From Bradyrhizobium prioriisuperbiae (GTDB lineage: Bacteria > Pseudomonadota > Alphaproteobacteria > Rhizobiales > Xanthobacteraceae), in contig NZ_CP135921.1 in NCBI RefSeq assembly GCF_032397745.1, forward strand, positions 1,922,001-1,986,000: 64,000 bases of DNA. The letters are read 5' to 3'. The notes under the pieces were generated by a model. The model did not search any database and was not told the origin of the DNA. It saw nothing but the letters and a program-made list of their open reading frames with translations. The position numbers were made by a program, and so were the translations under genes. The first letter of the stretch is position 1. The number at the start of each line of letters is the position of its first letter. Below are positions 6,600 through 57,059 of the stretch, piece after piece.

Positions 6600-7328
6600 A
6601 TGCAAGACGTCGACATGGATTGCTTACCCGACGGCTCGTCCCGCCCGTTAGCGGATGCAGCGAAGCCCACGACGAACGCATCAAACGTGGCGAAAGACTC
6701 TGATACCGATCTCACTTCCTCCTGCAGCGCAAACTTCGCAACCGATGTTTCCCCCTGTCCCGGGCGGCGCGCGCTGCTGGTGACGGCACTTGCAGGTTGC
6801 ATCGGCGTGATGACGAACAGGACGTCGCATGCCCAGGACGATGCGCCCGGCAGCGACGAACGGCCCCAAAAGACGGATCTTTTGGTCTTTGCCGACGGAG
6901 AACATGCAGGAGAGGTGATCAAACCGGGCGATTTGAAGATGGGCGGGCCGCCGATCAAGGCATGGCCGATGGATGCCGGCAGCAAAGTGGTGCGCAAGGG
7001 ATCGCGCTTGAACGAGCTGCTGGTGGTGCGGCTCGATGCCTCGGAGATCGACGACGAGACGCGTCCACGCGCGGCCGATGGAATCCTTGCTTATACGGCG
7101 GTGTGCTCGCATGCCGGATGCAACGTCACCGCCTGGGTAAAGCAGGCGGAAGGTGACAAGACCGTCTTCAAATGCATGTGCCACAATTCCGAATTCGATC
7201 CGCGGCAAAGCGGACAGGTGGTATTCGGCCCGGCGCCGCGGCGACTTGCGGTGCTTCCGCTGACGATGGCGGATCAATCCATCACGGTGGCGGCAGCTTT
7301 TGTCGGAAAGGTAGGTTTGCAGCGGTGA
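6600..7328 (+). CDS. Exported Rieske [2Fe-2S] protein
   Basis: A 242-residue protein with a late Tat-like segment (GRRALLVTALAG, about residues 54-65) ending in a possible cleavage site SHAQ, then a Rieske domain. Ligands are visible as C169-x-H171 (CSHAGC) and C192-x-C194-H195 (CMCHNS); C174 and C194 would form the stabilising disulfide found in high-potential bc1-type and arsenite-oxidase-type Rieske proteins. A classical bc1 subunit is unlikely because no cytochrome b or c1 gene follows. The start ATG has GGAGG 4 bases upstream; a methionine five codons later is an alternative. The unusually long polar stretch before the Tat motif is odd. A PQQ dehydrogenase gene follows after 81 bases, which suggests a role in its electron transfer. 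Confidence 0.85.
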   Translation: MQDVDMDCLPDGSSRPLADAAKPTTNASNVAKDSDTDLTSSCSANFATDVSPCPGRRALLVTALAGCIGVMTNRTSHAQDDAPGSDERPQKTDLLVFADGEHAGEVIKPGDLKMGGPPIKAWPMDAGSKVVRKGSRLNELLVVRLDASEIDDETRPRAADGILAYTAVCSHAGCNVTAWVKQAEGDKTVFKCMCHNSEFDPRQSGQVVFGPAPRRLAVLPLTMADQSITVAAAFVGKVGLQR

Positions 7329-7409
7329 CGTCGCGCACCGGAAAGGCAGAACTTAAAAACAATAACAAAAGACAACGACCAAAAACATAACAAAGCAGGA
7401 GGTAGCGCT

Positions 7410-9140
7410 ATGACCATGAAGCGATGGCTCTTATCGAGCCTGGTTGCGTCCGTATGCCTGATCCCGATGATGGCCCAGGCCGCCCCCATCGAGAACTACA
7501 GTCCGGTGACCGCCGAACGGCTCAAGAATCCGGAGCCGGCCAACTGGATGCTGTATCGCCGCACCTATGACGGCCAGGGCTACAGCCCGCTGGACCAGAT
7601 CAACGCCTCGAACGTCAAGGGCCTCGCGCCGGCATGGACATTCTCCACCGGCGTGCTCGAAGGCCATGAGGCGCCGCCGATCATCAACAACGGCGTGATG
7701 TTCGTGGCGACACCGATGGGCCAGGTGATCGCGCTGAACGCCAAAACCGGTGACGAGTACTGGCGCTACAAACGGCAGTTGCCGGAAGACCTGTTCCAGT
7801 TGCATCCGACCAGCCGCGGCGTCGGGCTGTGGCAGGACAAGCTCTATCTCGCCACCACCGACGATCACGTGGTCGCCCTCGATGCCAAAACTGGCAAGGT
7901 GGTCTGGGATACCAAGGTGCAGGACTACAAGAAGGGTCAGTATATGACCCTGATGCCACTGGTGGTGGACGGCAAGGTGATCGTCGGCGGATCCGGCGGC
8001 GAGTTCGGCGTTCGCGGTTATGTGGTGGCTTACGATGCCAACACCGGCAAGGAGCTGTGGCGAACCTTCACCATTCCCGCGCCCGGCGAGCCGGGCAGCG
8101 AAACCTGGCAAGGCGACGACTGGAAAACCGGCGGCGGCTCCGCCTGGATGACCGGGAATTACGATCCCGACACCAAGACGATCTATTGGGGCGTCGGCAA
8201 CGCCGCGCCGTGGCCGGGCGAAGGCCATCCCGGCGACAATCTCTACACCAGCTCGGTGCTGGCGCTGGATCCCGAGACCGGCAAGATCAAGGCGCATCAC
8301 CAGTATCACCAGAACGATTCCTGGGACTGGGACGAGGTCGAAGCGCCGATGCTGATCGACCTACAGCGTGACGGCCGCACCATCAAGAGCCTGATCCATC
8401 CCGGGCGCGACGCCATCTTCTGGATCCTGGAACGCAAGGCCGATCGTATCGACTATGTGGCCGGATGGCCGTTCGTCTATACCGATGTCTGGAAAGGCAT
8501 CACGCCGGAATCCGGGCGGCCGATCGTCGATCCCGCCCACAAGCCGGTGATGGGCAAGCGGATAGAATTCTGCCCGTCGCTGTGGGGCGGCAAGGACTGG
8601 CCGTCCGCGGCCTACAGCCAGAGGACAGGGCTGGTCTACGTTCCGGCCAACGAAAACTTCTGCGGCGGTTTCACCGGTGAGAAACAGCCGCTGGTTCCGG
8701 GACAATTGTGGCTCGGCACCAAACCGGAAGACATCGGCCTGACCGCCCGCCCCGGCGCAACGCATTTTGGCGAGTTGCAGGCCTGGGATCCGGCGACGGG
8801 TAAGAAAGTGTGGACGCACACCTTCGCCAAGTCGCCGCTGTTCGGCTCGGTGACGGCGACAGCCGGCGATCTCGTGCTGGTGGGCGGAACCAACGACCGC
8901 AACTTCCGCATCTTCCACGCCAAGACCGGCGAATTGCTGTGGGAGCAGAACACCAACTCCGGCATCATGGCCATGCCGATTGCCTATGAAGTGGACGGCA
9001 CCCAGTACATCGCGGTGCAGTCCGGCTGGGGTGTCGATGCCCAGCGCATTCAGGACGGCATGGTGACCGCCAAGATACCGGGCGTGGAGGCCAACGTGCC
9101 GCAGGGCGGCGTGATCTGGGTGTTCGCCCTGAAGAAGTAA
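7410..9140 (+). CDS. PQQ-dependent alcohol dehydrogenase, DxD (lanthanide-type) motif, no cytochrome domain
   Basis: A 576-residue periplasmic quinoprotein with a Sec signal peptide (MKRWLLSSLVASVC...AQA). Propeller W-motif repeats such as LNAKTGDEYWRY and LDAKTGKVVWDT run through the whole protein. The catalytic aspartate lies in D306-W307-D308; the extra aspartate two residues on is the hallmark of lanthanide-dependent XoxF/PedH enzymes, calcium MxaF having alanine there. The CC pair that forms the vicinal disulfide in most quinoprotein alcohol dehydrogenases is missing: the segment reads HPTSRGVGLW. There is no C-terminal haem-c domain, so an outside acceptor is needed. AGGAGG lies 7 bases before the ATG. 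It oxidises an unidentified alcohol (or possibly aldehyde). The Rieske gene precedes it and iorAB-type genes follow. Confidence 0.92.
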   Translation: MTMKRWLLSSLVASVCLIPMMAQAAPIENYSPVTAERLKNPEPANWMLYRRTYDGQGYSPLDQINASNVKGLAPAWTFSTGVLEGHEAPPIINNGVMFVATPMGQVIALNAKTGDEYWRYKRQLPEDLFQLHPTSRGVGLWQDKLYLATTDDHVVALDAKTGKVVWDTKVQDYKKGQYMTLMPLVVDGKVIVGGSGGEFGVRGYVVAYDANTGKELWRTFTIPAPGEPGSETWQGDDWKTGGGSAWMTGNYDPDTKTIYWGVGNAAPWPGEGHPGDNLYTSSVLALDPETGKIKAHHQYHQNDSWDWDEVEAPMLIDLQRDGRTIKSLIHPGRDAIFWILERKADRIDYVAGWPFVYTDVWKGITPESGRPIVDPAHKPVMGKRIEFCPSLWGGKDWPSAAYSQRTGLVYVPANENFCGGFTGEKQPLVPGQLWLGTKPEDIGLTARPGATHFGELQAWDPATGKKVWTHTFAKSPLFGSVTATAGDLVLVGGTNDRNFRIFHAKTGELLWEQNTNSGIMAMPIAYEVDGTQYIAVQSGWGVDAQRIQDGMVTAKIPGVEANVPQGGVIWVFALKK

Positions 9141-9470
9141 CCGCTGCGAAACCGGGACCATGGCGTCGCGCGAGCGACACCGATCGCACCGGTGCGATTC
9201 ATGAATTCCGCTCAATAGCCTATGTCATTCCCAGCGGGTTATGTCGTGAGATCGCGCTGGCTAACATCGTCCGACACTGGTGCGGCGCCGTACAACCCAA
9301 GGCGCCGCAAGACCCAAGGCGTGAAATCGACGATCACATTGATGTGCCTTTGGTTTGCCGCCATCCGGAGGCATCGTCACCGCGCAATAGAATCGTTCTA
9401 GATTTATTGTTTGTTTGCCAGCCTCCGATGGGAGGACCGGCAAATGCGTCGCACAATCGGAGGATTGATC
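9141..9470. other. 330-base non-coding region between the PQQ dehydrogenase and iorA genes
   Basis: It contains a perfect 16-base palindrome ATCGCACCGGTGCGAT (9183-9198) shortly after the dehydrogenase stop, which could end transcription or bind protein, and an ICE-like palindrome at 9388-9400. The second half is AT-rich and probably carries the promoter of the iorAB pair, so that pair is likely a separate transcript from the PQQ dehydrogenase. No gene is seen. Confidence 0.6.
9388..9400 (+). promoter_or_regulatory. Perfect TAGAA-TCG-TTCTA palindrome, ICE/Irr-like operator
   Basis: TAGAATCGTTCTA is a perfect inverted repeat, matching the core of the iron-control element TTTAGAA-N3-TTCTAAA bound by Irr in Bradyrhizobium relatives. 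It lies 71 bases before the start codon of the downstream [2Fe-2S] subunit gene. Control by iron status is inference from the motif and the cofactor. Confidence 0.5.
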
Positions 9471-9920
9471 ATGATCACGCTCAAGATAAACGGTGAAACC
9501 AAAACCTGGGACGGCGATCCGTCGCTGTCGTTGCTCTGGTACTTGCGCGATGAACTCGGATTGACCGGCACCAAGTTCGGTTGCGGCGAAGCCTTGTGTG
9601 GCTCTTGCACCGTGATGGTCGGCGACGACGCAGTGCGCGCCTGCATCACCGCGGTGTCCGATGTCTCGGGCGACGTGACCACCATCGAGGGCCTGCATCC
9701 GACCGGCGACCATGCCGTGCAGAAGGCGTGGCGTCAGGTCAATGTGCCGCAATGCGGCTATTGCCAGTCCGGCCAGATCATGCAGGCGGCGGCTTTGCTC
9801 AAGCAGAATGCAAGACCCTCGCACGACCAGATCCGCGAAGCCATGGCGGGCAACATCTGCCGCTGCGGCTGTTATCAGCGCATCGAGAATGCCGTGCATC
9901 TCGCATCGACGGGGGTGTGA
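9471..9920 (+). CDS. iorA: [2Fe-2S] small subunit of molybdenum hydroxylase (IorA-like), module 1
   Basis: A 149-residue two-cluster ferredoxin-like subunit. The plant-type cluster motif FGCGEALCGSCTV lies near residues 38-50 and the helical-domain cluster is carried by CGYCQSG (about 98-104) and CRCGC (about 130-134). The start ATG is chosen because ATCGGAGGA lies immediately upstream, rather than an earlier in-frame start. It has no signal peptide and is expected to be carried out of the cell by its partner's Tat signal. The large-subunit gene begins 2 bases after its stop. It relays electrons from the molybdenum site to an unidentified acceptor; no FAD subunit is encoded nearby, as is usual in the IorAB class. 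Confidence 0.92.
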   Translation: MITLKINGETKTWDGDPSLSLLWYLRDELGLTGTKFGCGEALCGSCTVMVGDDAVRACITAVSDVSGDVTTIEGLHPTGDHAVQKAWRQVNVPQCGYCQSGQIMQAAALLKQNARPSHDQIREAMAGNICRCGCYQRIENAVHLASTGV

Positions 9921-9922: not shown

Positions 9923-12226
9923 ATGAACAGCATCTTTCCCGTCCCGACTCCCGCCAAGGTCGAAATCATATCCCGCCGCAGTGTGCTGAAAGGCCTCGGC
10001 CTGATCGGCAGCTTCGTGCTGGCGGCCCCCGTGATGACGCGCGGCGCGTTCGCAGCCTACACCACCGGTGCCGACAAGATGCCGCATGGCACCGTGGTCG
10101 ATCCGCGCATCTTCGTGGCCATCGCGCCCGACGGCATCGTCACCATCCTGGCGCATCGCGCCGAGATGGGCACCGGCGTGCGCACCAGCCTGCCGCTGAT
10201 GGTCGCGGAGGAAATGGAAGCCGACTGGTCGCGCGTGCGCGTGCAGCAGGCGCCGGGCAATGAGGCCAAATACGGCAATCAGGATACCGACGGCTCGCGC
10301 AGCACCCGGCATTATCTGATTCCGATGCGCCAGATCGGCGCGTCGGCCCGCGCCATGCTGGAGGCCGCCGCCGCCAAGCGCTGGGGTGTGCCTGTCGCCG
10401 AGGTCAGGGCCACCAACCACGAAGTGGTCCATGCCAGCAGCGGCCGCAAGCTCGGTTTCGGCGATCTCGCCGCTGATGCCGCCGCGCAGCCGGTGCCGGC
10501 CATCGCGGATCTCAAGCTCAAGAGCCCGAAGGATTTCCGTTATCTCGGCAAGGGCCAGGTCAGTATTGTCGATCTGCACGATATCACCACCGGCAAGGCG
10601 CATTACGGCATCGACACCCGCCTGCCCGGCATGAAGTACGCCGTGATCGCGCGGCCTCCGGTCACCGGCGGCAAGTTGAAGTCGTTCGATGCGGCGGAGG
10701 CGCTGAAGGTTCCCGGCGTCGAAAAGGTGATGGAGGTGCAGGGCTGGCCCTGGCCTTCCAAGTTTCAGCCACTCGGCGGCGTCGCCGTAATCGCGCGCAA
10801 CACCGGCGCGGCGATCAAGGGGCGCGACGCCCTGAAGATCGAATGGGACGACGGCCCCAACGCGAGTTACGATTCGGTGGCCTATCGCGCCATGCTCGAA
10901 GAGGCTGCGCGAAAACCCGGCAAGGTGGTGCGCAATGACGGCGACGTCGAGGCCGCGCTGAAGAGCGCCGACAAGGTGATTGTCGGCGAGTATTATTTGC
11001 CGCATCTCGCCCATGCCAGCATGGAGCCGCCGGTGGCGGTGGCCAATGTGACCGACGGCAAGGCCGAGATCTGGGCGCCGGTGCAAAGCGCCGGCGGCAC
11101 CCGCGAGGATGTGGCGAAAACGCTCGGCATTCCCGAGGACAACGTGACGGTCAATGTCACGCTGCTCGGCGGTGGTTTCGGCCGCAAGTCAAAGTGCGAC
11201 TTCGCGATCGAGGCAGCGCTGTTGTCAAAGACCCTGGGCGCACCGGTGAAGGTGCAGTGGACGCGGGAAGACGACATTCGTCATGACTTCCTGCACACGG
11301 TGTCGGCGGAACGCATCGAGGCCGGCCTCGACAAGAGCGGCAAGGTGATTGCCTGGCGGCATCGCAGCGCGGCGCCGACCATCGCCTCCACCTTTGCCGC
11401 CGGCGCCAAGAACGAAGCACCGTTCGAGCTCGGCATGGGCCTTGTCGACATGCCGTTCGAGATCGCCAACATCCGCTGCGAGAATCCGGACGTCGCCGCC
11501 TATACACGGATCGGCTGGTTCCGCTCGGTGTCGAACATCCCGCACGGCTTTGCGGTGCAATCGATGGTCGGCGAACTGGCGCATGCGACGGGACGCGACC
11601 AGAAGGACATGCTGCTGGAGCTGATCGGCAAGCCGCGGATCGTCAAGCTCAACGATTCGGTGAAGGACCTCTGGAACTACGGCGAGCCGCTGGACAGCTA
11701 TCCGATCGATGCCGGCCGGCTGCGCCGCGTGGTGGAGATGGTGGCCGAGAAGGGCGGCTGGGGCCGCAGCGTGCCGAAGGGCCATGGGCTGGGCATCGCC
11801 GTGCACCGCAGCTTCGTCAGCTACATCGCGACCATCGTCGAGGTGGCGATCGGCGACAAGGGCGAGATATCTGTGCCGCGCGTCGACACCGCGATCGACT
11901 GCGGCACGTTCATCAATCCGGAACGGATCCAGTCGCAGATCGAAGGCGCCGCGATCATGGGCCTGAGTCTTGCCAAGCACGGTGCGATTACGTTCAAGAA
12001 CGGCCGGGTCGAACAAGGCAACTTCGACGACTTCCCCGTGGTGCGGATGGACGAGGCACCGCTGATCACCCACGTCCATATCGTGCCAGCGGATGAAGAC
12101 ACCCCGCCAAGCGGCGTCGGCGAACCCGGCGTGCCGCCGTTCGCGCCGGCGCTGGTCAACGCGATCTTCGCCGCGACCGGAAAGCGGATTCGGACGCTGC
12201 CGATCGGCAAGCAGCTGGAGACGTGA
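9923..12226 (+). CDS. iorB: Tat-exported molybdopterin subunit, IorB/isoquinoline 1-oxidoreductase-beta family, module 1
   Basis: A 767-residue catalytic subunit. The N-terminus carries a Tat signal ([10 protein letters not shown], residues 17-26) followed by a hydrophobic stretch to about 48, so the folded IorAB pair should be exported. The Moco domain shows [12 protein letters not shown] and the catalytic-glutamate loop [12 protein letters not shown] near the C-terminus. Members of this family oxidise aldehydes or hydroxylate N-heterocycles and donate electrons to cytochromes or quinone. Placement after a PQQ dehydrogenase suggests aldehyde oxidation, which is inference. A strong terminator follows. 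A second iorAB pair occurs at 50313-53095 on the other strand next to another PQQ dehydrogenase. Confidence 0.92.
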
Positions 12227-30371: not shown

Positions 30372-30423
30372 AGGTTGGTTCATAAGAACCGCCAGAGGGA
30401 CTGAAACGTAAAGGGAGATGACC

Positions 30424-31551: not shown

Positions 31552-31561
31552 TCGCGGCGTT

Positions 31562-31640: not shown

Positions 31641-31672
31641 GAAGATGAAGATCGTTGAGGCAAAGTCAGGTT

Positions 31673-31814: not shown

Positions 31815-31836
31815 ATTCACAACGTCGAGAGGGACG

Positions 31837-34447: not shown

Positions 34448-34456
34448 GAGTTTCCC

Positions 34457-35197: not shown

Positions 35198-36246
35198 GCA
35201 AGCGCATCGGCATCGCCGGCGCCGGGCTGATCGGCAAGAAACACATCGAGCTGGTGCAGGCCAGTGCCGACTGCCGGCTTGCCGGCATTGCCGATCCCTC
35301 GCCGCAAGCGAAGGAAGTCGCCGAGGCCAACAACGTGACTTGGTATGCCGATCATCGTGCCCTGCTCGACACCGAAAAGCCCGACGGCCTGATCATCGCC
35401 TCGCCCAATGCACTGCATGTCGCCATGGCCATGGACTGCATCGATCGCGGCGTGCCGGCGCTGATCGAAAAACCGGTGGCGGATCAGGTCGACGCTGGAC
35501 GCCGGCTGCTGGCGGCGGTCGAGCGCACGGGAATTCCCATGCTGGTGGGTCATCACCGCCGGCACAATCCGCGCATCAAGGCGGTGCGTGATGCCGTGGC
35601 CGAGGGACGTCTGGGCACGCTCACCGCCGTGGTCGGGCTGTGGCTGCTGAAAAAGCCTGACGGCTATTTCGACGTCGGCTGGCGCAAGGAGGCCGGCGGG
35701 GGCCCGATCCTGATCAACTTGGTGCACGACATCGACAACCTCAGATTTATCTGCGGCGAGATTGTCGAGGTGCAGGCCCAGACGTCCAACGCGGTGCGCG
35801 GCTTCGCGGTGGAAGACACCGCCGCGCTGCTGCTGCGGTTCGCGAACGGCGCGCTCGGCACCGTCACATTGTCCGACGCGACGCCAGCGCCCTGGAGCTG
35901 GGAGTTGAGCTCCGGAGAAAATCCCACCTATCCCAAAAACGATCAGCCCTGCTACCTGCTGGCCGGCACCAGGGGATCGCTGGCGGTGCCGGATCTCGAT
36001 GTCTGGTCTTATCCCGGCAAGGACGGATGGTATGAACGGCTGCAAGCTGCTCCCCTGCCCACCCCGGACACCGATCCGCTGGTCGAACAGCTGCGCCATT
36101 TCCTTGCCGTGATCGACCGCCGCGAGACACCGCTGGTGTCGGTGGCGGACGCACTGGGCACCCTCGCCGTGGTCGAAGCAGTCAAGGAAGCGGCCCGCAG
36201 CGGCGGACGCGTTTCACCTCAATTCAACCTGGAGCCTGCGGCATGA
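35194..36246 (+). CDS. Gfo/Idh/MocA-family NAD(P)-dependent oxidoreductase
   Basis: A 350-residue enzyme. The N-terminal Rossmann domain has IGIAGAGLIGKKH (about residues 5-17) and the conserved EKP motif (LIEKPVAD, about 91-98); the C-terminal domain carries the catalytic HD of LVHDIDNLRF (about 177-186). Members oxidise sugar or cyclitol hydroxyls. Overlaps of 4 bases with livF and with the QuiC-type gene place it firmly in this operon, so oxidation of an imported hydroaromatic (for example quinate) is plausible but not established. Confidence 0.9.
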   Translation: MSKRIGIAGAGLIGKKHIELVQASADCRLAGIADPSPQAKEVAEANNVTWYADHRALLDTEKPDGLIIASPNALHVAMAMDCIDRGVPALIEKPVADQVDAGRRLLAAVERTGIPMLVGHHRRHNPRIKAVRDAVAEGRLGTLTAVVGLWLLKKPDGYFDVGWRKEAGGGPILINLVHDIDNLRFICGEIVEVQAQTSNAVRGFAVEDTAALLLRFANGALGTVTLSDATPAPWSWELSSGENPTYPKNDQPCYLLAGTRGSLAVPDLDVWSYPGKDGWYERLQAAPLPTPDTDPLVEQLRHFLAVIDRRETPLVSVADALGTLAVVEAVKEAARSGGRVSPQFNLEPAA

Positions 36247-44888: not shown

Positions 44889-45037
44889 GACAATTGCCCC
44901 CAACACCCTAACGCGATCGCCCCTCGGGGTGCGACCAAATGGCTCAGAGGTGTCAGTAGCAGTGCGGCGTCCTGTCGCAACCTGAATTGGCCGAAATTGC
45001 GGCCTTGAAATATTTGAATCGCTCTAGATCAAAATGG

Positions 45038-45482: not shown

Positions 45483-48400
45483 TCACGCCTGGTCCTGGCC
45501 GTCGTCCTGCGCCATCAGCGCGGCGTTGCCACCGGCCGCAGCGGTGTTGATGGTGACGGTCTGCTCGATGGCGAAGCGCGGCAGGTAATGCGGACCGCCC
45601 GCCTTCGGCCCGGTGCCGGACAAACCATGGCCGCCGAACGGCTGCACCCCCACCACGGCCCCGATCATGTTGCGATTGACATAGACATTGCCGACCGCGA
45701 GCCGCTCCACCACCGTCGCCACGGTCTCGTCGATGCGCGAATGGATACCGAGCGTCAGTCCATATCCGCTGCGGGCCACCGCTTCGATCACCCGGCCGAG
45801 ATCGGCGGCGCGATAACGCACCACATGCAGGATCGGTCCGAACACTTCGTCCTGCAGCTGCCCGACATCGGCCAGTTCGAACACATGGGGCGCGACGAAC
45901 AGGCCGCCCTTCGGCGCGGTGCCGGCATAATGCACCCGCGCCTGGGTTTTCATCCGTGCCACATGGGCTTCGAGGCGTTGTTTGGCCTCGGCATCGATCA
46001 CCGGGCCGATGTGAATGGAGGGATCGCGCGGATCCCCGATTGCAAGCTCCCGCGCGGCGCCGACGATCATGTCGATCATCCGGTCGGCGACATCCTCCTG
46101 CAGCAGCAGCAATCGCAACGCCGAGCAGCGCTGGCCGGCGGAGCGGAACGCGGACGTGATGACATCGTCGGCGACCTGCTCGGGCAGCGCGGTGGCATCG
46201 ACAATCATCGTATTGATGCCGCCGGTCTCGGCGATCAGCGGCACGATCGGGCCGTCCTTCGCCGCCAGCGCCCGGTTGATGGCACGCGCCACCTCGGTCG
46301 AGCCGGTGAACACCACACCCGCGACATCGCGGTGCGCCACCAGCGCCGCGCCGATGGCGCCGTCTCCGATCACGAGATGCAAGGCCGCGGCCGGCACGCC
46401 GGCCGCATGCAGCAGCCGTACGGCTTCCGCTGAAATCAGCGGCGTCTGCTCGGCCGGCTTGGCCACCACCGCGTTGCCCGCCATCAAGGCGGCCGCAACC
46501 TGTCCCAGAAAAATCGCAAGCGGGAAATTCCAGGGCGAGATGGCGACGATGACGCCGCGGCCACGCAGCCGCAGCACATTGCTTTCACCGGTGGGCCCTG
46601 GCAGCGGCTGGACACCGGCGAACAGCCGGGCACCTTCGACGGCATAATAACGACAGAAATCGACCGCTTCGCGGACCTCCGACAGCGCGTCATCGAGGGT
46701 CTTGCCGCCCTCCCGCTGCAACAGCGCCATCAGATGATCGCGGCGCTGCTCCAGCAGATCCGCCGCACCCATCAGAGCGGCCGCACGCACCGAAGCCGGC
46801 GTGGCGCTCCATTTTGTGAATCCAGAACGCGCGGCGGCCATCGCCCGATCGGCGACGTCGGACGTGGCCTCGACGACATATCCAACCACAGTGGCCCCAT
46901 CGATCGGGCTCATGGTTGCACGGGTCGTGCCCGCAACTGTCTTGCCGTCGATCAGCGACGATGCCGTCACCGGCGCAAGATCGCCGGCCATTCCGGCCAC
47001 CATCGCATCGAGCACCTTGCGATCGCCGAACTCCAGGCCCTGTGAATTGATCCGCTGCGGCTGGAACAGATCGCGCGGCAGCGGCAGTTTCGGATGGCGG
47101 GCATGGTCGGGAGCAGCGACGATGTCCGCCGGCCGTCGCAGCAGTGTCGTCACCGGCACGGACGCATCGGCCGCGACCGCGACGAACGATGTGTTGGCGC
47201 CGTTTTCCAAAAGCCGCCGCACCAGATAGGCCAGCAGTTCGCGATGGCTGCCGACCGGCGCATAGGTCCGGCACGCCAGTTCCGGACGATCCGACAACAG
47301 GCGCGCATAAAGCGCGTCACCCATGCCGTGCAGGCGCTGGAATTCGTACCCCTCGGCGCCATCGGCCAGCTCGAGCACCGTCGCCACCGTCAACGCGTTG
47401 TGGGTGGCGAACTGCGGAAACAGCCGGGGACGCAGCGCCAGCAGCTTGCGCGCGCAGGCGATGTAATTGAGGTCGGTCATCGCCTTGCGGGTGAACACCG
47501 GATAATCGTCCAGCCCGCGCTCCTGCGCGCGCTTCACCTCGGTGTCCCAATAGGCGCCCTTGACCAGACGCACCATCAGACGGCGATTGAGGGTGCGCGC
47601 CAGCGCATCGACATGATCGATCACCGCCTCCGCACGCTTCTGATAGGCCTGGATGGCAAGACCAAATCCATCCCAGCCTGCGAGCGAGGGCTCAGCAAGA
47701 GTCGCTGCAATGACATCCAGCGACAGCTCAAGCCGGTCGGCTTCTTCAGCGTCGATGGTGAGATTGAGATCGAACGACTTCGCCTGCCGCGCCAGTGTGA
47801 TCACCAGCGGCACCAGTTCGCGCATCACCCGCGGCCGGCTGATCGCCTCATAACGCGGATGCAAAGCCGACAATTTGACTGAAATGCCCGGGCGATCGGG
47901 CAAGACATTGCGGCCCGCGGCCCGGCCGATGGCGTCGACGGCTCCGGCATAGGCTTCAAAATAACGTGACGCATCCGCCGCGGTGCGTGCGCCCTCGCCC
48001 AGCATGTCGAAGGAATAACGCGCGGCGTGGCCGTGCTGCGGGCCGGCGTGGGCCAGCGCGGCCTCGATGGTTTCGCCCAGCACGAAGTGATTGCCCATCA
48101 GCCGCATCGCCTGGCGCGTGGCGATCCGCACCGCCGGAAGCCCGATGCGTTTGGCAAGCTTGCCGATGGTGCCCAGCGGTGTTTCGCTGGGCGCGATCAG
48201 CTTCGACGACAGCCCCAGCGCCCAGGCCGAGGCATTGACCAGCAACGCCTGCGACTTGACGTCGTGGCGCGCGAAATCGCCCTGGCCCAGCTTGTCCTCG
48301 ATGAATCTGTCTGATGTCGCGCTATCCGGCACCCGCAGCAGCGCCTCCGCCAGCACCATCAGCGCCACGCCCTCCTTGGTGGAAAGGGCGAACTCCCGCA

Positions 48401-48587
48401 ACATCTCCTCGACGCCGCCAAAGCCGCTGGCCTCGGCCCGGATCGCGGCGACCAGCCGCGCGGCCGTGGCGTCGATGGCCGCTTCACGCTCCGGCGCAAG
48501 GCGGGCGTCCTTCAGCAGCCGCGCCGCGATGTCGCGGTCGTCCGGCATGTCAGCAAATCCGGTCCAGCGAGGAGCATCCTGCATCAT
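45483..48587 (-). CDS. putA: Bifunctional proline dehydrogenase / L-glutamate gamma-semialdehyde dehydrogenase
   Basis: A 1034-residue short-form PutA. The PRODH barrel (about residues 150-460) includes LVKGAYWDTEVKRAQ and FATHNALTV with FAD-binding character; the aldehyde dehydrogenase domain (about 530-1010) has FTGSTEVA, the general-base glutamate in ETGGIN, and the catalytic cysteine in SAGQRCSALR. It oxidises proline to glutamate with internal channelling, feeding electrons to quinone and NAD. It lacks the N-terminal ribbon-helix-helix DNA-binding domain, so it does not repress itself; no putP or obvious regulator gene is adjacent. Confidence 0.95.
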   Translation of the reverse strand: MMQDAPRWTGFADMPDDRDIAARLLKDARLAPEREAAIDATAARLVAAIRAEASGFGGVEEMLREFALSTKEGVALMVLAEALLRVPDSATSDRFIEDKLGQGDFARHDVKSQALLVNASAWALGLSSKLIAPSETPLGTIGKLAKRIGLPAVRIATRQAMRLMGNHFVLGETIEAALAHAGPQHGHAARYSFDMLGEGARTAADASRYFEAYAGAVDAIGRAAGRNVLPDRPGISVKLSALHPRYEAISRPRVMRELVPLVITLARQAKSFDLNLTIDAEEADRLELSLDVIAATLAEPSLAGWDGFGLAIQAYQKRAEAVIDHVDALARTLNRRLMVRLVKGAYWDTEVKRAQERGLDDYPVFTRKAMTDLNYIACARKLLALRPRLFPQFATHNALTVATVLELADGAEGYEFQRLHGMGDALYARLLSDRPELACRTYAPVGSHRELLAYLVRRLLENGANTSFVAVAADASVPVTTLLRRPADIVAAPDHARHPKLPLPRDLFQPQRINSQGLEFGDRKVLDAMVAGMAGDLAPVTASSLIDGKTVAGTTRATMSPIDGATVVGYVVEATSDVADRAMAAARSGFTKWSATPASVRAAALMGAADLLEQRRDHLMALLQREGGKTLDDALSEVREAVDFCRYYAVEGARLFAGVQPLPGPTGESNVLRLRGRGVIVAISPWNFPLAIFLGQVAAALMAGNAVVAKPAEQTPLISAEAVRLLHAAGVPAAALHLVIGDGAIGAALVAHRDVAGVVFTGSTEVARAINRALAAKDGPIVPLIAETGGINTMIVDATALPEQVADDVITSAFRSAGQRCSALRLLLLQEDVADRMIDMIVGAARELAIGDPRDPSIHIGPVIDAEAKQRLEAHVARMKTQARVHYAGTAPKGGLFVAPHVFELADVGQLQDEVFGPILHVVRYRAADLGRVIEAVARSGYGLTLGIHSRIDETVATVVERLAVGNVYVNRNMIGAVVGVQPFGGHGLSGTGPKAGGPHYLPRFAIEQTVTINTAAAGGNAALMAQDDGQDQA

Positions 48588-50312: not shown

Positions 50313-52607
50313 TTACGCCTTCATCGCGCCCTTCACGGCGTCCGCCGTGATCGGCAGCGAGCGCACCCGCGCGCCGACCGCGTTGAAGATCGCGTTCGCC
50401 AGTGCCGGCGCGACCACGGTCACCGCGGGTTCGCCGACGCCGGTGGCCTTCTCGCCATTGGCGATGACGCTGACGGCAACCTCCGGCAGCTGGCTCATCC
50501 GCAACGGCGTGTAGCTGTCGAAGTTGGTCTGCTCGATCGCACCGTCCTTCAACGTCGCCTTCTCGTACATCGCCAGCGACAGGCCCCACAATGCCGCGCC
50601 CTCGACCTGGGCGCGGATGTTGTCGGGATGCACTTGCGTGCCGACATCGGTGGCCACGGTGAGTTTCCTCACCTTGACCTCGCCCGACGGCGCCACCGCC
50701 ACGTGGGCGACGCAAGCGGTCCAGCTCGCGGTTGCCCGTTCCTGCGACGACACGCAGGCGACACCCATGCCTTCGCCCTTGGGCAACTGCTTGGTGCCAT
50801 AGCCGGCGAGCCCCATGGCCGCGAGCAGGGTGTTGCGCAGACGCTGCGCGCCACCGTCGTTCTTGCCCTTGCCGTCCAGCAGCGCAATGCGGAACTGTGC
50901 CGGATCCTTGCCGGCCGCGTGCGCAAGTTCGTCGATCATGCTTTCGACCGCCCAGAACGTCCAGCCGGGAGCCACCGACCGCAACTGGCCGGAGGGCGTG
51001 GCGTTCTGCGCCATCTCGTTGAGAATGGCGCGGACGTTGTGGTTGGGCACGGAGTAGAAGAAGTCCGCCCCGTTCACGGTGAACGCATCGAGCGCCCCCT
51101 TCTTGTCGACCGAGGGCGACAGGAAATCCGGGATGCCCCAGCGCTTGGTCGGCCAGGCGCTGACCACGTCGTGGTTCAGCGCCACCAGCTTGCCATCATT
51201 GTCGAGGCCGGCCTTGATTTTCTGGTAGGTCAGCGGTCGCGAGAAATCCATCGTCATGTCGTCTTCGCGCGAATAGATGACCTTGACCGGCTTGCCGACG
51301 GCCTTGGCCGCCTGCACCGCCGGCACCATCATGTCGGCATCGAGCCGCCGGCCGAAGCCGCCGCCCAGCCACATCTGATGCAGCACCACGAATTTGGGAT
51401 CCACCCCGGCGGCCCCCGCCGCGATGGCGCCGGAGCGCGTCGCGAACTGGTTGCCGGAATAGATGTGCCAGATGTCGCCCTTCTGTTCGGCGGTGGCGTT
51501 CATCGGCTCCATCGGCGCATGAATGTTGATGTTGGTGGTGTATTCCGCCTCCATCACCTTCGCCGCCGAACCGAGCGCCGCCGCGGTGTCGCCGTCCTTG
51601 ACGAAAAACAGCCCGGTCTCGTCCATGCGTTGCAACCGCTGGGCTTCCTCCAGCAGCGCCGCGCTTGAGATCATCCTGTTTGGGCCGTTGTCATACGTCA
51701 CCTTCAGCGCTTCCGCCGCCTTGCGGGCGTTGGCGTAGGTGCTGGCCACCGCCACCACCCAGCCGGAGGTGGTTCCGGTCTTGTCGTCGAGGGTGACGGC
51801 CTTGATGAAGCCCGGCACTTTTTTCGCCGCGCTGTCGTCCACCGATTTCACCGTGGCGCCGAAGCGCACCGGCGGCATCACGATCTTGCCGTACACCATG
51901 CCGGGCAGGAAGGTATCGATGCCGTACTTCGCTGTGCCGTTGGTCTTCGACGGAATGTCGAGCTGCGGCACCGACACCCCGATCATTGTGTATTGATCGG
52001 GCGTCTTCAGCGTGATGGCCTTGAGCTGATCCGGCGTGAAGGTTTTCGTCACCTTCCCGCTCTTTACGACTTCGGCGAAGGTCATCGCCTTTTTCGACTT
52101 GCCGTGGGCGATGACGGAATCGCGCACCGTCACTTCCTCGACCGGCACCTTCATCAGCCCGGCCGCGGCTTCCGCCAGTGCCATCCGCCCGGCTGCGCCG
52201 GCCCGGCTCATGGCGTCGAAGTTCATCATGGTGCTCCAGCTGCCGCCGGTGATCTGGGCGCCGAGCACGGGATCGTTGAACTTCGGATCGTTGGAGGCGA
52301 GTTGGACCCGCATGTCCTTCCAGTTGGCACCGAGTTCCTCGGCCACGATCTGCGCCATGGTGGAGGCGATGTGCTGGCCCATGTCGGCCTTGCCGCAGGT
52401 CACGGTGACCAGACCATCGGGCGCGATGGCGTACCAGACACTCGGCTCGAAATTGGCGGAAGCGGCAAACGCCGCGCTGTCGCCGACAATGCCGGGAACG
52501 CCGGCATACCCGAGCACAAGACCGGCGGTGCCGGCACCGACCAGGAACGAACGACGGCTGAGATCGACCGATGTCTGCGCGGAAACTTTCTTGATGTGCG
52601 TATTCAT
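50313..52607 (-). CDS. iorB: Tat-exported molybdopterin subunit, IorB-like, module 2
   Basis: A 764-residue catalytic subunit. The Tat signal [10 protein letters not shown] lies at residues 17-26, then a hydrophobic stretch to about 50. The Moco domain has [12 protein letters not shown] (about residue 400), and the catalytic glutamate is in [19 protein letters not shown] near the C-terminus. It is a paralogue of the module 1 gene at 9923. The likely role is exported aldehyde or N-heterocycle oxidation. The start overlaps the iorA stop by 4 bases, so the two are coupled. A terminator follows. Confidence 0.92.
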
Positions 52608-53095
52608 GTGTTCCTCCGATCGTTGCCCGCGTTCGACGCGGTGCGCATGTCGGATGCGGCACGCATGATGGCTTTCTGAATCCGGGAATAGGTCATGCAG
52701 CGGCAGAGATTGCCGTCCATGTGGGCGATGACCTCATCCTTGGTCGGGTTGGTGTTCTTCGACAGCAGCGAGGCCGCCTGCATGATCTGCCCGGACTGGC
52801 AGTAACCGCATTGCGGCACCTGCTCGGCGATCCAGGCCTTCTGCAGCGGATGATCGCCCTTGGCGCTCAGTCCTTCGATGGTGGTGATCTTCTTGCCGAC
52901 GGCTTCGCTGAGCGCGGTCTGGCAAGAGCGAACGGCTTCACCGTTCACATGCACCGTGCATGCGCCGCAAAGTCCCGCGCCGCAGCCGAACTTCGTGCCG
53001 GTCATCTGCAATTGCTCGCGGATGATCCAGAGCAGCGGCGTATCGTTGGCCGCCTCGACGGACATATTCCGTCCATTGATGTTGAGAGTGGGCAT
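52604..53095 (-). CDS. iorA: [2Fe-2S] small subunit of molybdenum hydroxylase (IorA-like), module 2
   Basis: A 163-residue subunit. The first cluster motif [13 protein letters not shown] lies near residues 37-49 and the second cluster residues in CGYCQSG and [10 protein letters not shown] (about 97-139). No leader; it is expected to ride on the IorB Tat signal. The helical-domain motif ends CRCMTY rather than CRCGCY as in module 1. GGAAG lies upstream of the ATG. A TTAGAATCGTT element lies about 135 bases upstream. Confidence 0.92.
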
Positions 53096-53226
53096 TTATC
53101 TTCCCCTTCCGGTGCATGACGTCGCTTACGGCGACACTTCATTCTGAATTCTGAAAACCCGCGGCACCCACCGGGAGGTGCCGGACGGCTGAGCATGATC
53201 CGGTTCGGTTGCGCTGGCAACGCAAA

Positions 53227-53240
53227 TTAGAATCGTTAAA
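53227..53240 (-). promoter_or_regulatory. TTAGAA-TCG-TTAAA ICE-like element upstream of iorA (module 2)
   Basis: TTAGAATCGTTAAA shares the core TAGAATCGTT with the perfect palindrome at 9388-9400 upstream of the other iorA. The left arm fits the iron-control element, the right arm is degenerate. It lies about 132 bases before the start of the iorAB pair. The 257-base gap 53096-53352 otherwise shows nothing notable. Confidence 0.4.
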
Positions 53241-53352
53241 AACGAAAACAGAAACGCGACACCCGGTTGCCGGACGTGTTTGTGCGGCGCGAAAAACATC
53301 GGCGTATGGCTGCGGTTTCCCCGAAGAAACCGCAGCCGCCATCTTTCAGGCC

Positions 53353-54012
53353 TCAACTCTTGCTGCGCAGGATGCTGATCCGCGTCTCGTCGACAAAATT
53401 CTTCTCATCCTGATCGGAGCGGCGAAACAGGTTGCGCTCGACCACCAGCGCACGACCGCTGATGGTCTTGGTGCAACGCTCCTTGAGGTAGACGCCACCG
53501 ACCGACTGCTCGCCGCCTTGCGGCTGACTTTCGACGCAGGACCAGCCATCGTCGCCATAACGCGACTTGGCCTGCAGCCCGAGCAGAAACGCCTTCTTGC
53601 GGATATAGAGCCGCGCCTTGGGATCGGTCTCGATCCTGAGGCCCGCGACTTGGCCGGCCTCGTCGACCAGCAGCGTCAGGACCGCTGGATGTCCCGCCAC
53701 CATGGTGCCTTCGCGGCTGGTGAGGGGATCGTAACCGAAACGAATGGCGCGCAGGGCCGCAGCGTCCGCCGGGCAGTCCTTCCAACTCGCCCAGCCATCC
53801 AGCGCAAGCTTGGGATCATCGGCGCAAGCGAAGTCGACATAGCCTTCCTTTGGAAGGTCGGCCGCGCGCATGCCGATGCGGATATCGCGCAGATCGTTGC
53901 CACGGAATTCGTCGGCACGCGCGGCCGGTGTCGCCGGCGTCACCGCCTGCGACAGCAGCAGCGCGACCGCCATCACGCCCGCAAATCGGGACAATCGAGA
54001 TGATATCGTCAT
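53353..54012 (-). CDS. Unknown exported protein of the PQQ/cytochrome locus
   Basis: A 219-residue protein with a Sec signal peptide (about residues 1-33, ending ARADE). I do not recognise the family. The mature part has an NDLRDIRIGM start typical of small secreted domains, cysteines at FACADDP, SWKDCPAD, WSCVESQP and KERCTKT that could make two disulfides, and mixed beta strands. Its start overlaps the stop of the cytochrome c gene by 4 bases, so it is translated with it. A role in assembling or modulating the cytochrome/PQQ dehydrogenase pair is inferred from this coupling. Confidence 0.8.
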   Translation of the reverse strand: MTISSRLSRFAGVMAVALLLSQAVTPATPAARADEFRGNDLRDIRIGMRAADLPKEGYVDFACADDPKLALDGWASWKDCPADAAALRAIRFGYDPLTSREGTMVAGHPAVLTLLVDEAGQVAGLRIETDPKARLYIRKKAFLLGLQAKSRYGDDGWSCVESQPQGGEQSVGGVYLKERCTKTISGRALVVERNLFRRSDQDEKNFVDETRISILRSKS

Positions 54013-54593
54013 TGGCTTTTCTCCGGGCCGGCCGGCGCGGCCGCCTTCTGCATCTCAGACCTGTAGACGTCGCACACCCGCGAGGTGTTGCCGAAGAAGC
54101 TCGTGCACTCGGCAAAGGTCGGCTCGCCGGCCCCCTTCACGTGAGCGATCACATAATCGGCGACCGCCTCGATATCGTTGGGCCGCAGGAACGTGCCGCC
54201 TTCCGGCGGCATCTGGGCTCCGGCGTCCTGGCGGGTCATGTCGAAGCATTTCACGGTGTCATAGGCGCCGCGGACGAAAAACGGCATGCCGGTGCCGGGG
54301 CGGCCACAGCTCACCGTCTCGACGATCTGCTCCTTGGTCAGTTCGGTCTTGCGCAGCGACAGCGCATCGCCGCCATACCCGCCGCCGCCATTGCCATGCC
54401 ATTTGTGGCAGCCCATGCAGTTGGCGCGCTTGAACACCGCTTTGCCGGCGTCGGTGGGATCGGCAGCAACAGCCGATTGCGCACGGGCAGCGCCTACCAT
54501 CGAAATTTGCATCGACATTGGCATCGAAAAAGCCAAAACGGCACAGGCGAGCAGCGCACCGGCCACAGAGGAAACCCTGGAGATCATCATCAC
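54009..54593 (-). CDS. Periplasmic mono-haem cytochrome c, probable PQQ dehydrogenase electron acceptor
   Basis: A 194-residue protein with a signal peptide (to about residue 39, AARAQ) and one haem-attachment motif C59-M-G-C62-H63. A methionine in AQMPPEGG (about residue 129) is the probable sixth ligand. Four further cysteines (VSCGRPG, VKCFDM, AECTSF, RVCDVY) are unusual for such a cytochrome and could form disulfides. It follows the PQQ dehydrogenase gene after a 62-base gap holding a hairpin, so it is the likely acceptor of that enzyme, like XoxG/MxaG in methanol oxidation. Confidence 0.9.
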   Translation of the reverse strand: MMMISRVSSVAGALLACAVLAFSMPMSMQISMVGAARAQSAVAADPTDAGKAVFKRANCMGCHKWHGNGGGGYGGDALSLRKTELTKEQIVETVSCGRPGTGMPFFVRGAYDTVKCFDMTRQDAGAQMPPEGGTFLRPNDIEAVADYVIAHVKGAGEPTFAECTSFFGNTSRVCDVYRSEMQKAAAPAGPEKSQ

Positions 54594-54614
54594 GTCTCGT
54601 GTTGTTGGAAAACC

Positions 54615-54642: not shown

Positions 54643-54655
54643 TTGCTGACTGGTT

Positions 54656-56440
54656 CTAGAGCGCGAACACGTAGAGCATCGATCCCGGCTGAATGCGCTT
54701 CAGCTCAGGTGTGGAATCGATGAACCACTTGTCCCAGGCACCGCCCAGGCCGACCAGGATCGCGACATACTGCTTGCCATCCACCATGAAGGTCATCGGA
54801 GGTGCATTGACGCCGCCGCCGGTGTTGAACTCCCACAGTTTCTGCAGCGACTTGGCGTCGAGCGCCATCACTTCGCCGGACGGCTCGCCGCTGAAGACGA
54901 GGTCCGGCGTCGCCAGGATGCCGCCAAGCATCGGGAATGGCGTCTCCAGCTTGCCGGCCACCTTGCCCGTGGTGACGTCGATGGCGGTGACGCTGCCGGT
55001 GATCTTGAATGGCTGGCTCGGGCCGCCGCCGGTCCAGAATTCACGCGGCTTCAGCTTATCCTTCTCAGCCACCTCGACCTTGATCCGGTTGCAGCTCTCG
55101 ATCACCGGGATGTACCAGAGCTTCAGATCCGGATTGTAGGCGGTGGGCGGCCAGTTCTTGCCGCCCATGTTGCCCGGACAGATGTCGGTTTCCAGGTTGC
55201 TGCGACTTGGCGTGACGGCTGTATTATAAGTCTGCACCGGCTTTTTCGGATCGTATTCGACCGGCTTGCCGGTTTCCGCATCGAGCCCCTTGGTCCAGGT
55301 CACCTTCTTCACGAACGGAAGTCCCCAGACGAACTTGCCGGAGTTGCGATCGACCGCATAAGCGAAGCCGTTGCGATTGGCATGCAACGCCAGCTTCTGC
55401 GAGCCGTTGGCCACGGGCACGTCGACCAGCACGTTCTCCGACACGCTGTCATAGTCGTAGGGATCGTTTGGCGTGTGCTGGTAGTGCCATTTGATCTTGC
55501 CGGTCGCGGCGTCGAGACCGAGCGAACTGTCGGTGTAGAGATTGTCGCCGGGACGGTATTCATTATCCCAGTCCGGCCCCGGATTGCCGACGCCCCAGAC
55601 GATGGTGTCGGTGGCGGGATCGTAGCTGCCGGTCACCCAGGTGGAACCGCCGCCGCTGGCCTGGGCGTTCTTGTCGTCCTTCCAGGTTTCGCTGCCCGGC
55701 TCGCCCTTGGCGGGAATGGTGTGGGTACGCCAGACTTCCTTCTGGCTCGACAGATCGGTGGCGGCAATCCAGCCGCGGATGCCGTATTCGGCGCCGGCCA
55801 CGCCGGTGATCGCCATGTTCTTGACGATCAGCGGCGCCCCGGTGATGACCTCGCCCTTGTCCGGATCGGCGACCTGACGCTGCCAGGCAACCTGCCCGGT
55901 CTCCTTGTTGGTTGCGATCAGCCGGCCATCGAGGGTGTGCGAGATGACGAGATTGCCCCATAGCGCAACGCCGCGATTGTCGACACCGCAGCAGGCCACG
56001 GCACCGGCCCAGTCGTGATCGGTCTTGGGATCCATCTTCCAGAGCAGCACGCCTTTGCCGCCATGGGTATCGATCTTGTAGACCGAACCCCAGCCGTCGG
56101 TGACATAGAGAAAACCGTTCTCCGCGATCGGCGTGCCTTCGAGACCGCCATGGGTCCAGATGCCACCGCCTTCGACACCGCCCAGATGCATGGTCCAGGC
56201 GACCTTCAGATTCTTGACGTTGTCGCGGTTGATGTCCTTGAGGGTGGAGAACCGCCGGGCCGCGAAGTCCTTGTGATGGTGCAGCCAGTTGCCGGGCTCT
56301 TTCTCGACATTGAGCAGCCGCTCCGGTGTGACCTCGTCGGCGGCACGGGCGGGCAGGGTTACAAGCACACCGGCGGCGGCGAACGTGGCCGCAAGCAGAT
56401 GCACCCGGGCAATGGTGGCGTAGCCTGATAAGCGTTTCAT
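54656..56440 (-). CDS. PQQ-dependent alcohol dehydrogenase, DxD (lanthanide-type) motif, module 2
   Basis: A 594-residue periplasmic quinoprotein with a signal peptide ending ARAADE near residue 35. The vicinal-disulfide pair C150-C151 lies in AVACCGVDNRGVALWG, and the catalytic aspartate is in D329-Y330-D331; the second aspartate is the XoxF/PedH-type lanthanide signature. W-motif repeats such as LDAATGKIKWHY run through the propeller. The start codon has AGGAGG 10 bases upstream; open frame continues 21 codons further but lacks a ribosome site. No haem domain is fused; a cytochrome c gene follows. It differs clearly from the module 1 enzyme in sequence and in keeping the disulfide. Confidence 0.93.
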   Translation of the reverse strand: MKRLSGYATIARVHLLAATFAAAGVLVTLPARAADEVTPERLLNVEKEPGNWLHHHKDFAARRFSTLKDINRDNVKNLKVAWTMHLGGVEGGGIWTHGGLEGTPIAENGFLYVTDGWGSVYKIDTHGGKGVLLWKMDPKTDHDWAGAVACCGVDNRGVALWGNLVISHTLDGRLIATNKETGQVAWQRQVADPDKGEVITGAPLIVKNMAITGVAGAEYGIRGWIAATDLSSQKEVWRTHTIPAKGEPGSETWKDDKNAQASGGGSTWVTGSYDPATDTIVWGVGNPGPDWDNEYRPGDNLYTDSSLGLDAATGKIKWHYQHTPNDPYDYDSVSENVLVDVPVANGSQKLALHANRNGFAYAVDRNSGKFVWGLPFVKKVTWTKGLDAETGKPVEYDPKKPVQTYNTAVTPSRSNLETDICPGNMGGKNWPPTAYNPDLKLWYIPVIESCNRIKVEVAEKDKLKPREFWTGGGPSQPFKITGSVTAIDVTTGKVAGKLETPFPMLGGILATPDLVFSGEPSGEVMALDAKSLQKLWEFNTGGGVNAPPMTFMVDGKQYVAILVGLGGAWDKWFIDSTPELKRIQPGSMLYVFAL

Positions 56441-56564
56441 CGGGGAGTGACCTCCTGTTGGCGTCTTCATGTTTGTTTCGCGCGCCGGCATATCCGGACG
56501 CACGGGTGAGAAGCCTTGTTCAGCGAGTTCAGCAGTCAGCGGGCCTACCCGCCCGCCGCCCTCG

Positions 56565-57059
56565 TCAGGGCGATCGCGTGACGTGAACCTCCGTTTCCTT
56601 GGTTCCTGCCTTTTGAAACACGACGGAACAGGTGAACGTCACGCCGTCGGCGAGCTTCTGCCGCGTCTGCAGCAGCATGATGTGATGGCCGTCGCGCTTG
56701 AGTTCGGTGGTCTGGCCGGCCGGAATCGGGATCGACTTGACCGCGCGCATCGCGGGCGCGCCCTCGCCGCGGTCGACGGTGTGCTTTTCGCTGAAGTTGG
56801 CGATCGGGCAACGCACCCGCAGGATCGCATCGGCTTCCGCCGTTTCGTTCCTGATGGTCATCAGAAACGGCAGATCGACGCCGACTTGGTCCGACACCGG
56901 CACCCGGGCGTTGCTGACCTGCAGATCCTCGGCCGCAGCGACAGCCGGGACCAATCCCAGGCCGAGGGCGAACAAGCTGGACTTGATGAAAATTCCGGCG
57001 AGCGAGCGACGCCGCAACATCGTCCGAGGCTTGCGAACGATACGTATCGTCCGGCCCAT
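56565..57059 (-). CDS. PCuAC-type periplasmic copper chaperone
   Basis: A 164-residue protein with a Tat/Sec-like basic leader (RKPRTMLRRRSLAG then a hydrophobic run ending VAAAED). The DUF461/PCuAC copper motif is visible as the H of EKHTVD, the M of PAMRAV, and HxM in GHHIML. These proteins hand Cu(I) to the CuA site of cytochrome oxidase. AGGAGG lies 9 bases before the ATG. It is the first gene of the module 2 strand, 124 bases before the PQQ dehydrogenase, which suggests a link to respiratory electron disposal. Confidence 0.88.
   Translation of the reverse strand: MGRTIRIVRKPRTMLRRRSLAGIFIKSSLFALGLGLVPAVAAAEDLQVSNARVPVSDQVGVDLPFLMTIRNETAEADAILRVRCPIANFSEKHTVDRGEGAPAMRAVKSIPIPAGQTTELKRDGHHIMLLQTRQKLADGVTFTCSVVFQKAGTKETEVHVTRSP

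Follow-up and report, generated by a model that had tools for sequence, protein, structure and literature searches.

Two putative periplasmic alcohol-to-acid modules in Bradyrhizobium prioriisuperbiae and a Rieske-linked clade of PQQ dehydrogenases

The genome of Bradyrhizobium prioriisuperbiae consists of one contig of 9.08 Mb (NZ_CP135921.1). We describe here a stretch of 64,000 nucleotides from it (positions 1,922,001–1,986,000, the window), which carries two gene modules, each pairing a pyrroloquinoline quinone (PQQ)-dependent alcohol dehydrogenase with a molybdenum hydroxylase of the IorAB type. Judging from gene content and neighborhood, it is fairly probable that both modules are periplasmic alcohol-to-acid kits assembled from interchangeable units, with the dehydrogenase of the first coupled to a Rieske protein as electron acceptor.

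Module 1 lies on the plus strand. It begins with RIE1 (6600–7328, with a possible alternative start at 6579), a Rieske [2Fe-2S] protein with a twin-arginine (RR) leader that matches PF00355 at 37.3 bits against a cut-off of 20.3. PQQ1 follows (7410–9140), a PQQ-dependent alcohol dehydrogenase of predicted lanthanide type that scores 628.2 bits with TIGR03075, has the motif DWD, and carries LHPT where related enzymes have a vicinal Cys-Cys pair. An intergenic gap of 330 bp (9141–9470) separates it from IorA1 (9471–9920), a subunit with two [2Fe-2S] domains (Fer2 and Fer2_2), and IorB1 (9923–12226), the large subunit of a molybdenum hydroxylase of aldehyde dehydrogenase type, with MoCoBD_1 and MoCoBD_2 domains and a leader for twin-arginine translocation (Tat).

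Module 2 occupies the minus strand and is given here in its reading direction. Its first gene encodes a protein resembling PCu(A)C copper chaperones (PCuAC, 56565–57059; PF04314, 79.5 bits), and its second PQQ2 (54656–56503), a PQQ-dependent alcohol dehydrogenase that is also of predicted lanthanide type (DYD) and retains the vicinal Cys-Cys (ACCG). PQQ2 scores 533 bits with TIGR03075, so both dehydrogenases exceed the curated cut-off of 480.05. Next come a c-type cytochrome (54009–54593; PF13442 and PF00034), the likely electron acceptor of PQQ2, and UNK2 (53353–54012), an exported protein with no Pfam or NCBIfam match, whose structural model (mean predicted local distance difference test score, pLDDT, 79.2) has no PDB match at E ≤ 0.001. 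After a gap of 257 bp (53096–53352), the module ends with IorA2 (52604–53095; Fer2 and Fer2_2) and IorB2 (50313–52607; MoCoBD domains), a Tat-leader large subunit of the same type as IorB1. Scanning the window for Rfam families and tRNAs gave no matches.

Open reading frames and profile matches place all ten genes where a preliminary description of this DNA had put them, and the twin-arginine leaders that it had reported on both IorB proteins are present. Each module consists, however, of two gene units separated by a gap and not of one. A single-operon reading of either module is rejected on account of the gaps, the convergent and divergent gene orders seen in other Bradyrhizobium genomes and the similarity of the region upstream of iorA2 to that of relatives lacking the PQQ gene. 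In module 1, the gap between PQQ1 and iorA1 likely holds a separate transcription start for iorA1.

The best solved match of both PQQ1 and PQQ2 is 6zcv/6zcw, annotated as quinoprotein ethanol dehydrogenase, which we take to be the lanthanide enzyme PedH. Two residues past the catalytic Asp, both proteins have an extra Asp (DWD in PQQ1, DYD in PQQ2), the D-x-D lanthanide signature, and the extra Asp is used to predict lanthanide dependency of PQQ dehydrogenases according to excerpts of PMC12628762. Lanthanide use is therefore predicted for both enzymes, and the genome also encodes PqqC. Identity between PQQ1 and the xoxF-like protein of the same genome, whose gene lies at 7.57 Mb (module 1 is at 1.93 Mb), is no more than about 36%, and in a tree made with a quick search the PQQ1 clade and XoxF are on different branches.

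RIE1 stays below the cut-offs for the Rieske protein of the bc1 complex (QcrA; 77.6 versus 275 bits and 45.2 versus 97.4 bits). In the eight members of its family that were aligned, the cluster-binding and disulfide residues (CxHxxC...CxCH) are invariant, and seven of the eight have the RR leader. The small proteins encoded after the Rieske gene in Paracoccus, Alteromonas and two further loci (L030 and L177; L denotes fetched loci and G sampled genomes of relatives) have no Pfam match.

The Rieske gene is the constant companion of PQQ1. Of 551 related stretches obtained in a scan of species genomes, the 80 with the best match were analyzed (79 labelled Bradyrhizobium and one Bradyrhizobiaceae), and in all 80 a Rieske gene lies within 1 kb upstream of the PQQ1 homolog. 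One is also found within 1 kb in all 24 clade members from outside that scan, a set that includes the window genome and Beta- and Gammaproteobacteria and excludes Deinococcus. It is thus the Rieske protein, and not IorAB, that is the fixed partner of PQQ1. A script searching within 1.5 kb recovered the Rieske gene for 103 of 104 distinct clade proteins, and inspection of the remaining locus (L127) revealed one there as well. Only 1 of 96 other PQQ dehydrogenases, from Deinococcus, has a Rieske neighbor. The vicinal Cys-Cys is absent from all 104 clade proteins (81 from the Bradyrhizobium scan and 23 of 23 from the rest) and present in 89 of the 96 others (40 of 47 when proteins from that scan are left aside). 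Within 3 kb, a script located a gene encoding CxxCH for 1 of 86 clade members, compared with 16 of 25 other PQQ dehydrogenases and 53 of 67 PQQ2 loci; the script misses about a fifth, as tblastn finds the cytochrome at 70 of 70 PQQ2 loci. At 21 clade loci outside Bradyrhizobium no small cytochrome was seen; the only two with CxxCH have it in a protein roughly 1,100 residues long, which is annotated as FG-GAP-like in L180.

The clade is widespread. A class-wide sample contained a member in 11 of 385 genomes, with a clear score gap (at least 853 versus at most 481 bits), and a phylum-wide sample, which overlaps the first, in 12 of 398, nine of them being the window genome and Bradyrhizobium. Eight of nine plasmid matches were fetched, from Roseomonas, Azoarcus, Methylobacterium, Alteromonas, Paracoccus (three) and the Deinococcus outlier; on the Roseomonas plasmid the genes for Rieske protein, PQQ dehydrogenase, IorA and IorB stand in one tight row. 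In the quick-search tree, in which PQQ1 is represented by Bradyrhizobium homologs of 83–87% identity and not by the window protein itself, 29 clade rows form one branch with full support (Shimodaira-Hasegawa-like approximate likelihood ratio test, SH-aLRT, 100). The motif is DWD in 100 of the 104 clade proteins and DWA in 4, and the DWA loci (L180, L181, L182, L184, L201, L202, L203) form one sub-branch, for which a change from lanthanide to calcium inside the clade is predicted.

Taken together, the loss of Cys-Cys, the lack of a nearby cytochrome gene and the presence of a Rieske gene lead us to infer a change of electron acceptor, in which the Rieske protein would receive the electrons of PQQ1 in place of cytochrome c. 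We lean, by a modest degree, toward extending this to the clade as a whole: its members in Alpha-, Beta- and Gammaproteobacteria, of both DWD and DWA type, together with the Deinococcus outlier, would give electrons to a dedicated periplasmic Rieske protein, and the disulfide would have been lost afterwards.

The association of PQQ1 with IorAB1 is of a looser kind. With a lower limit of 56% identity, PQQ1 has homologs in 8 of 150 genomes, and with one of 54%, IorB1 has them in at least 16 of 150 (among the best 7 candidates per genome), the window genome being counted in both. The two are side by side in five of the 8 PQQ1 genomes (the window genome, G026, G065, G087 and G113); the PQQ1 loci of G002 and G081 are without IorAB, and in G023 the contig ends there. 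In Bradyrhizobium, IorAB1 is near PQQ1 in 74 of 80 loci, or 74 of 77 when three loci at contig ends are set aside, and it is placed convergently downstream in 70, divergently upstream in 4, and in the order of the window in none. Among the 24 other members, IorAB is near the dehydrogenase in six (the window genome, L030, L177, L189, L190, L191), and in seven (L178, L180, L181, L182, L184, L202, L203) a gene for an aldA-type aldehyde dehydrogenase, not homologous to IorAB, lies within 5 kb, an assignment that was profile-checked for L178. Conversely, of 15 relatives with IorAB1-type genes, 10 lack an adjacent PQQ1 (4 have it, and in one the contig is short). The pairing noted in the preliminary description does recur and is near-universal for PQQ1 within Bradyrhizobium, but elsewhere it is optional, as it is for PQQ2 (15 of 70 loci). 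On the IorB1 tree the link to PQQ1 needs 5 changes, and in other lineages the pairing appears to have been built several times; one gain followed by many losses is the alternative.

Several observations weigh against the reading of module 1 as a Rieske-coupled alcohol-to-acid kit. On a plasmid of Deinococcus aetherius (L183:6374–8668), a Rieske gene stands beside a PQQ dehydrogenase that has both Cys-Cys and DYD, and therefore the two traits can separate. This protein falls outside the clade branch at an unsure position, together with two Rieske-less rows from G023, and a single origin of the Rieske link that includes Deinococcus has next to no support (6); its state is possibly the one before loss of the disulfide. 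Seven PQQ dehydrogenases outside the clade have neither Cys-Cys nor a Rieske gene, so loss of Cys-Cys has other causes too. The clade members counted are mostly from Bradyrhizobium and thus not independent. In the remaining 11 of the 24 members outside the Bradyrhizobium scan, neither IorAB nor an aldehyde dehydrogenase gene is in view (L151 and L031 end near the gene). Finally, in 48 of 80 Bradyrhizobium loci the gene order continues beyond IorAB1 with gfa, frmA, xoxG and xoxF, all directed towards iorA1, and the Bradyrhizobium IorAB1 may serve XoxF instead of PQQ1.

This last point is the basis of an alternative that we regard as unlikely: IorAB1 would belong to methanol and formaldehyde metabolism and oxidize the formaldehyde made by XoxF, and Rieske-PQQ1 would be a neighbor acting on another alcohol. 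In the 48 loci, xoxF-xoxG-frmA-gfa-iorA1-iorB1 are co-directional and convergent with PQQ1-Rieske, and frmA and gfa are equivalog matches. The neighborhood matches the methanol region of Bradyrhizobium sp. USDA 3456 in excerpts of PMC12628762, according to which methanol together with La raises xoxF, xoxG, frmA and gfa by 27- to 59-fold, and the xoxF region contains two further xoxF homologs. In the window genome, however, the xoxF-like gene is far away and IorAB1 follows PQQ1. In G113, Roseomonas and three genomes of one family (f182), Rieske-PQQ genes have types of IorAB1 as neighbors although the stretch fetched contains no xoxF, and the words "isoquinoline" and "xanthine" are absent from the main text of PMC12628762. 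The xoxF neighborhood suggests, under the reading of module 1 as an alcohol-to-acid kit, small alcohols and formaldehyde as candidate substrates in Bradyrhizobium.

The composition of module 2 was followed in 195 Bradyrhizobium genomes, 65 of which have PQQ2, in 70 places (68–89% identical over the tblastn stretch). PQQ2, cytochrome c and UNK2 are kept together at all 70 loci and PCuAC at 60. The IorAB genes that adjoin this cassette at 15 loci come from two subfamilies. The full six-gene order of the window occurs in 6 of 70 (L205–L210), and in 9 of 70 an IorAB of the IorB1-like subfamily (58–61%) stands directly upstream of PQQ2. One more locus (L271:7419–7861) has an iorA remnant upstream of PQQ2 without iorB, probably the decay of a formerly paired module. 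The remaining 54 cassettes show no IorAB, with the flank too short to be sure in two. Outside the genus, genes for cytochrome c and UNK2 accompany a PQQ2-like gene in G023, G077, G079 and G081, where IorAB2 is absent; G079 has a weak IorA-like match about 7.6 kb from the cassette. In G023 three PQQ2-like dehydrogenase genes stand in tandem, followed by one cytochrome c and one UNK2 gene (L062:8019–13927).

The pairing in module 2 could thus be a chance juxtaposition with no functional link. Mere juxtaposition was first favored and was then weakened by the genus-wide search; we now judge it to be quite unlikely. Nine relatives have orthologs of IorAB2 (82–86%) with no PQQ gene in the fetched stretch, and eight of these loci share genes found to the right of module 2 in the window. 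The region upstream of the window's iorA2 matches these PQQ-less relatives over 138–152 bp in four and 37–49 bp in five and has no detectable similarity to the six-gene loci L205–L210; the part of the gap next to iorA2 is therefore probably the original iorA2 promoter region. The many cassettes without IorAB speak for chance as well, and the paired label shows no excess of clustering over shuffled labels on the tree of IorB2 (80 of 500 as low). On the other side stand the recurrence of the six-gene order and the placement of the other IorAB subfamily directly upstream in 9 loci (10 with the remnant). In the cassette tree, the window genome, L209 and the group of L205–L208 and L210 are separate, with unpaired loci in between, and on the IorB2 tree no fewer than 4 changes are required to account for pairing with PQQ2, a count that gene conversion with second copies could inflate. 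A single gain with repeated loss is the alternative here as well. The joining in the window genome was apparently a separate event. We interpret this recurrence, which involves both IorAB subfamilies and both flanks of the cassette, as selection for a shared pathway.

A different role for the Rieske protein is also conceivable, namely as electron acceptor of IorAB and not of PQQ1. The two share one cluster in the window, and a multi-haem cytochrome subunit gene adjoins neither IorAB (module 1 has none, and module 2 has only the small cytochrome c of the PQQ2 cassette). This role is nevertheless very improbable: in 18 of the 24 loci outside the Bradyrhizobium scan the Rieske gene is beside PQQ1 with no IorAB in view, and the 10 IorAB1-type loci without PQQ1 have no Rieske neighbor by tblastn with RIE1.

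Both IorAB proteins consist of a [2Fe-2S]2 subunit and a molybdopterin subunit, without a subunit for flavin adenine dinucleotide, and the MoCoBD domains of both IorB proteins are in permuted order. By far the best solved structure for each is 8gy3_C, the large subunit of an aldehyde dehydrogenase (IorB1 294.6 bits, next 119.6; IorB2 591.9 bits, next 128.5), and the isoquinoline oxidoreductase name is therefore probably misleading. IorAB would then act on the aldehyde produced by the PQQ dehydrogenase. The proposed path from alcohol through aldehyde to acid, set out in the preliminary description, thus finds partial backing: the 8gy3_C match and the replacement of IorAB by an aldA-type gene at seven Rieske-PQQ loci fit it, while IorAB itself is optional. 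That IorAB acts on N-heterocycles unrelated to alcohols, as its family name and the quinoline and nicotinate enzymes among the weaker PDB matches of both IorB proteins would have it, is scarcely credible given a lead of more than 170 bits for the aldehyde dehydrogenase subunit and the repeated linkage to alcohol dehydrogenases.

The genome has five full-length dehydrogenases of TIGR03075 type, four of them above the cut-off, and about ten IorB-type proteins (permuted MoCoBD_2 matches). IorAB lies within 3 kb of two of the five dehydrogenases, for which rough arithmetic gives a chance of less than 0.1% in 9.08 Mb. About 30 MoCoBD_2 proteins were counted in the genome. At the left edge of the window (142–2502) lies a third molybdenum hydroxylase large subunit, which is unpermuted and of CO dehydrogenase/xanthine dehydrogenase type; an IorA-like small subunit is encoded directly upstream of it, outside the window.

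Based on these comparisons, we propose that the modules work as follows. Each would combine a unit A, made up of an alcohol dehydrogenase and the electron acceptor dedicated to it, with a unit B, the Tat-exported molybdenum aldehyde dehydrogenase IorAB. In both, the alcohol would be oxidized at PQQ in the periplasm. Unit A of module 2 would be of the ordinary kind, in which the Cys-Cys quinoprotein PQQ2 reduces its dedicated cytochrome c. In module 1, electrons from reduced PQQ (PQQH2) would pass to the Tat-exported Rieske protein, in place of cytochrome c, and from there to the respiratory chain. The aldehyde would then be oxidized by IorAB.

Between the two modules, the genes at 29490–38114 encode a shikimate dehydrogenase-like protein, ABC transporter-like proteins, an oxidoreductase of the GFO/IDH/MocA type and a fusion of a TIM-barrel protein with an HPPD-like domain, an assembly that resembles a quinate/shikimate catabolic cluster. 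A gene for a TonB-dependent receptor (42411–44906) adjoins that of a three-domain PutA-type proline dehydrogenase (45483–48587).

Alcohol dehydrogenases of the type I quinoprotein class are regarded as coupled to cytochrome c, and what their unusual vicinal disulfide does is a matter of long debate. If the proposed mechanism is right, quinoproteins would have in the Rieske protein an electron acceptor of a new kind. A clade that has lost the disulfide and has a Rieske gene, but no cytochrome gene, close by is a natural test of the disulfide's purpose. No report of a Rieske partner of a PQQ dehydrogenase was found in the open-licence literature, although one may exist elsewhere; excerpts of PMC5023235, PMC11102522, PMC4013037, PMC10654088 and PMC12314914 mention Rieske proteins only in other contexts. 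What is new here is the Rieske-linked clade, which has lost the vicinal disulfide, together with the recurrent assembly of IorAB with PQQ units. Coupling of PQQ1 to a Rieske protein would also suggest what one of the unassigned xoxF-like genes in Bradyrhizobium does; USDA 3456 has seven further PQQ dehydrogenases of unknown function according to excerpts of PMC12628762. That IorAB has repeatedly become linked to alcohol dehydrogenase units is evidence that these IorABs are aldehyde oxidases in vivo.

Among known systems, quinoproteins of the PedH/ExaF type (6zcv, 6zcw) have the motif residues E, N and D-x-D in common with PQQ1 and PQQ2. In excerpts of PMC12997753, PedH works with the cytochrome c550 PedF; PQQ1, in contrast, lacks Cys-Cys and has a Rieske partner gene. 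The XoxF methanol dehydrogenase, presumably to be labelled clade 5, shares TIGR03075 and D-x-D with PQQ1 and belongs to a different branch. Among solved structures, the one that best matches the Rieske family, across the whole exported domain, is a Rieske protein that we assume to be of Thermus origin (PDB 3fou, 1nyk). Its name assigns it to a quinol-cytochrome c reductase, whereas module 1 holds no cytochrome b gene. For IorAB, the match 8gy3, a membrane-bound molybdopterin aldehyde dehydrogenase, is presumably from Gluconobacter. In acetic acid bacteria, a PQQ alcohol dehydrogenase with a molybdenum aldehyde dehydrogenase is a known design (excerpts of PMC9171043), and both modules would follow the same periplasmic plan; the enzymes of those bacteria are cytochrome-linked and feed ubiquinone, whereas the IorABs of the window have no adjoining multi-haem cytochrome subunit gene. 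In Pseudomonas putida, PP_3621-3623 (IorAB and AdhB) is one of the candidates to follow PedE/PedH in glycerol oxidation and is more abundant with La3+ (excerpts of PMC7188995). It is an IorAB aldehyde oxidase complex, as those of the window would be, but has its own cytochrome c gene, and its locus numbers lie apart from those of the ped cluster, given as PP_2674-2680 in excerpts of PMC12997753.

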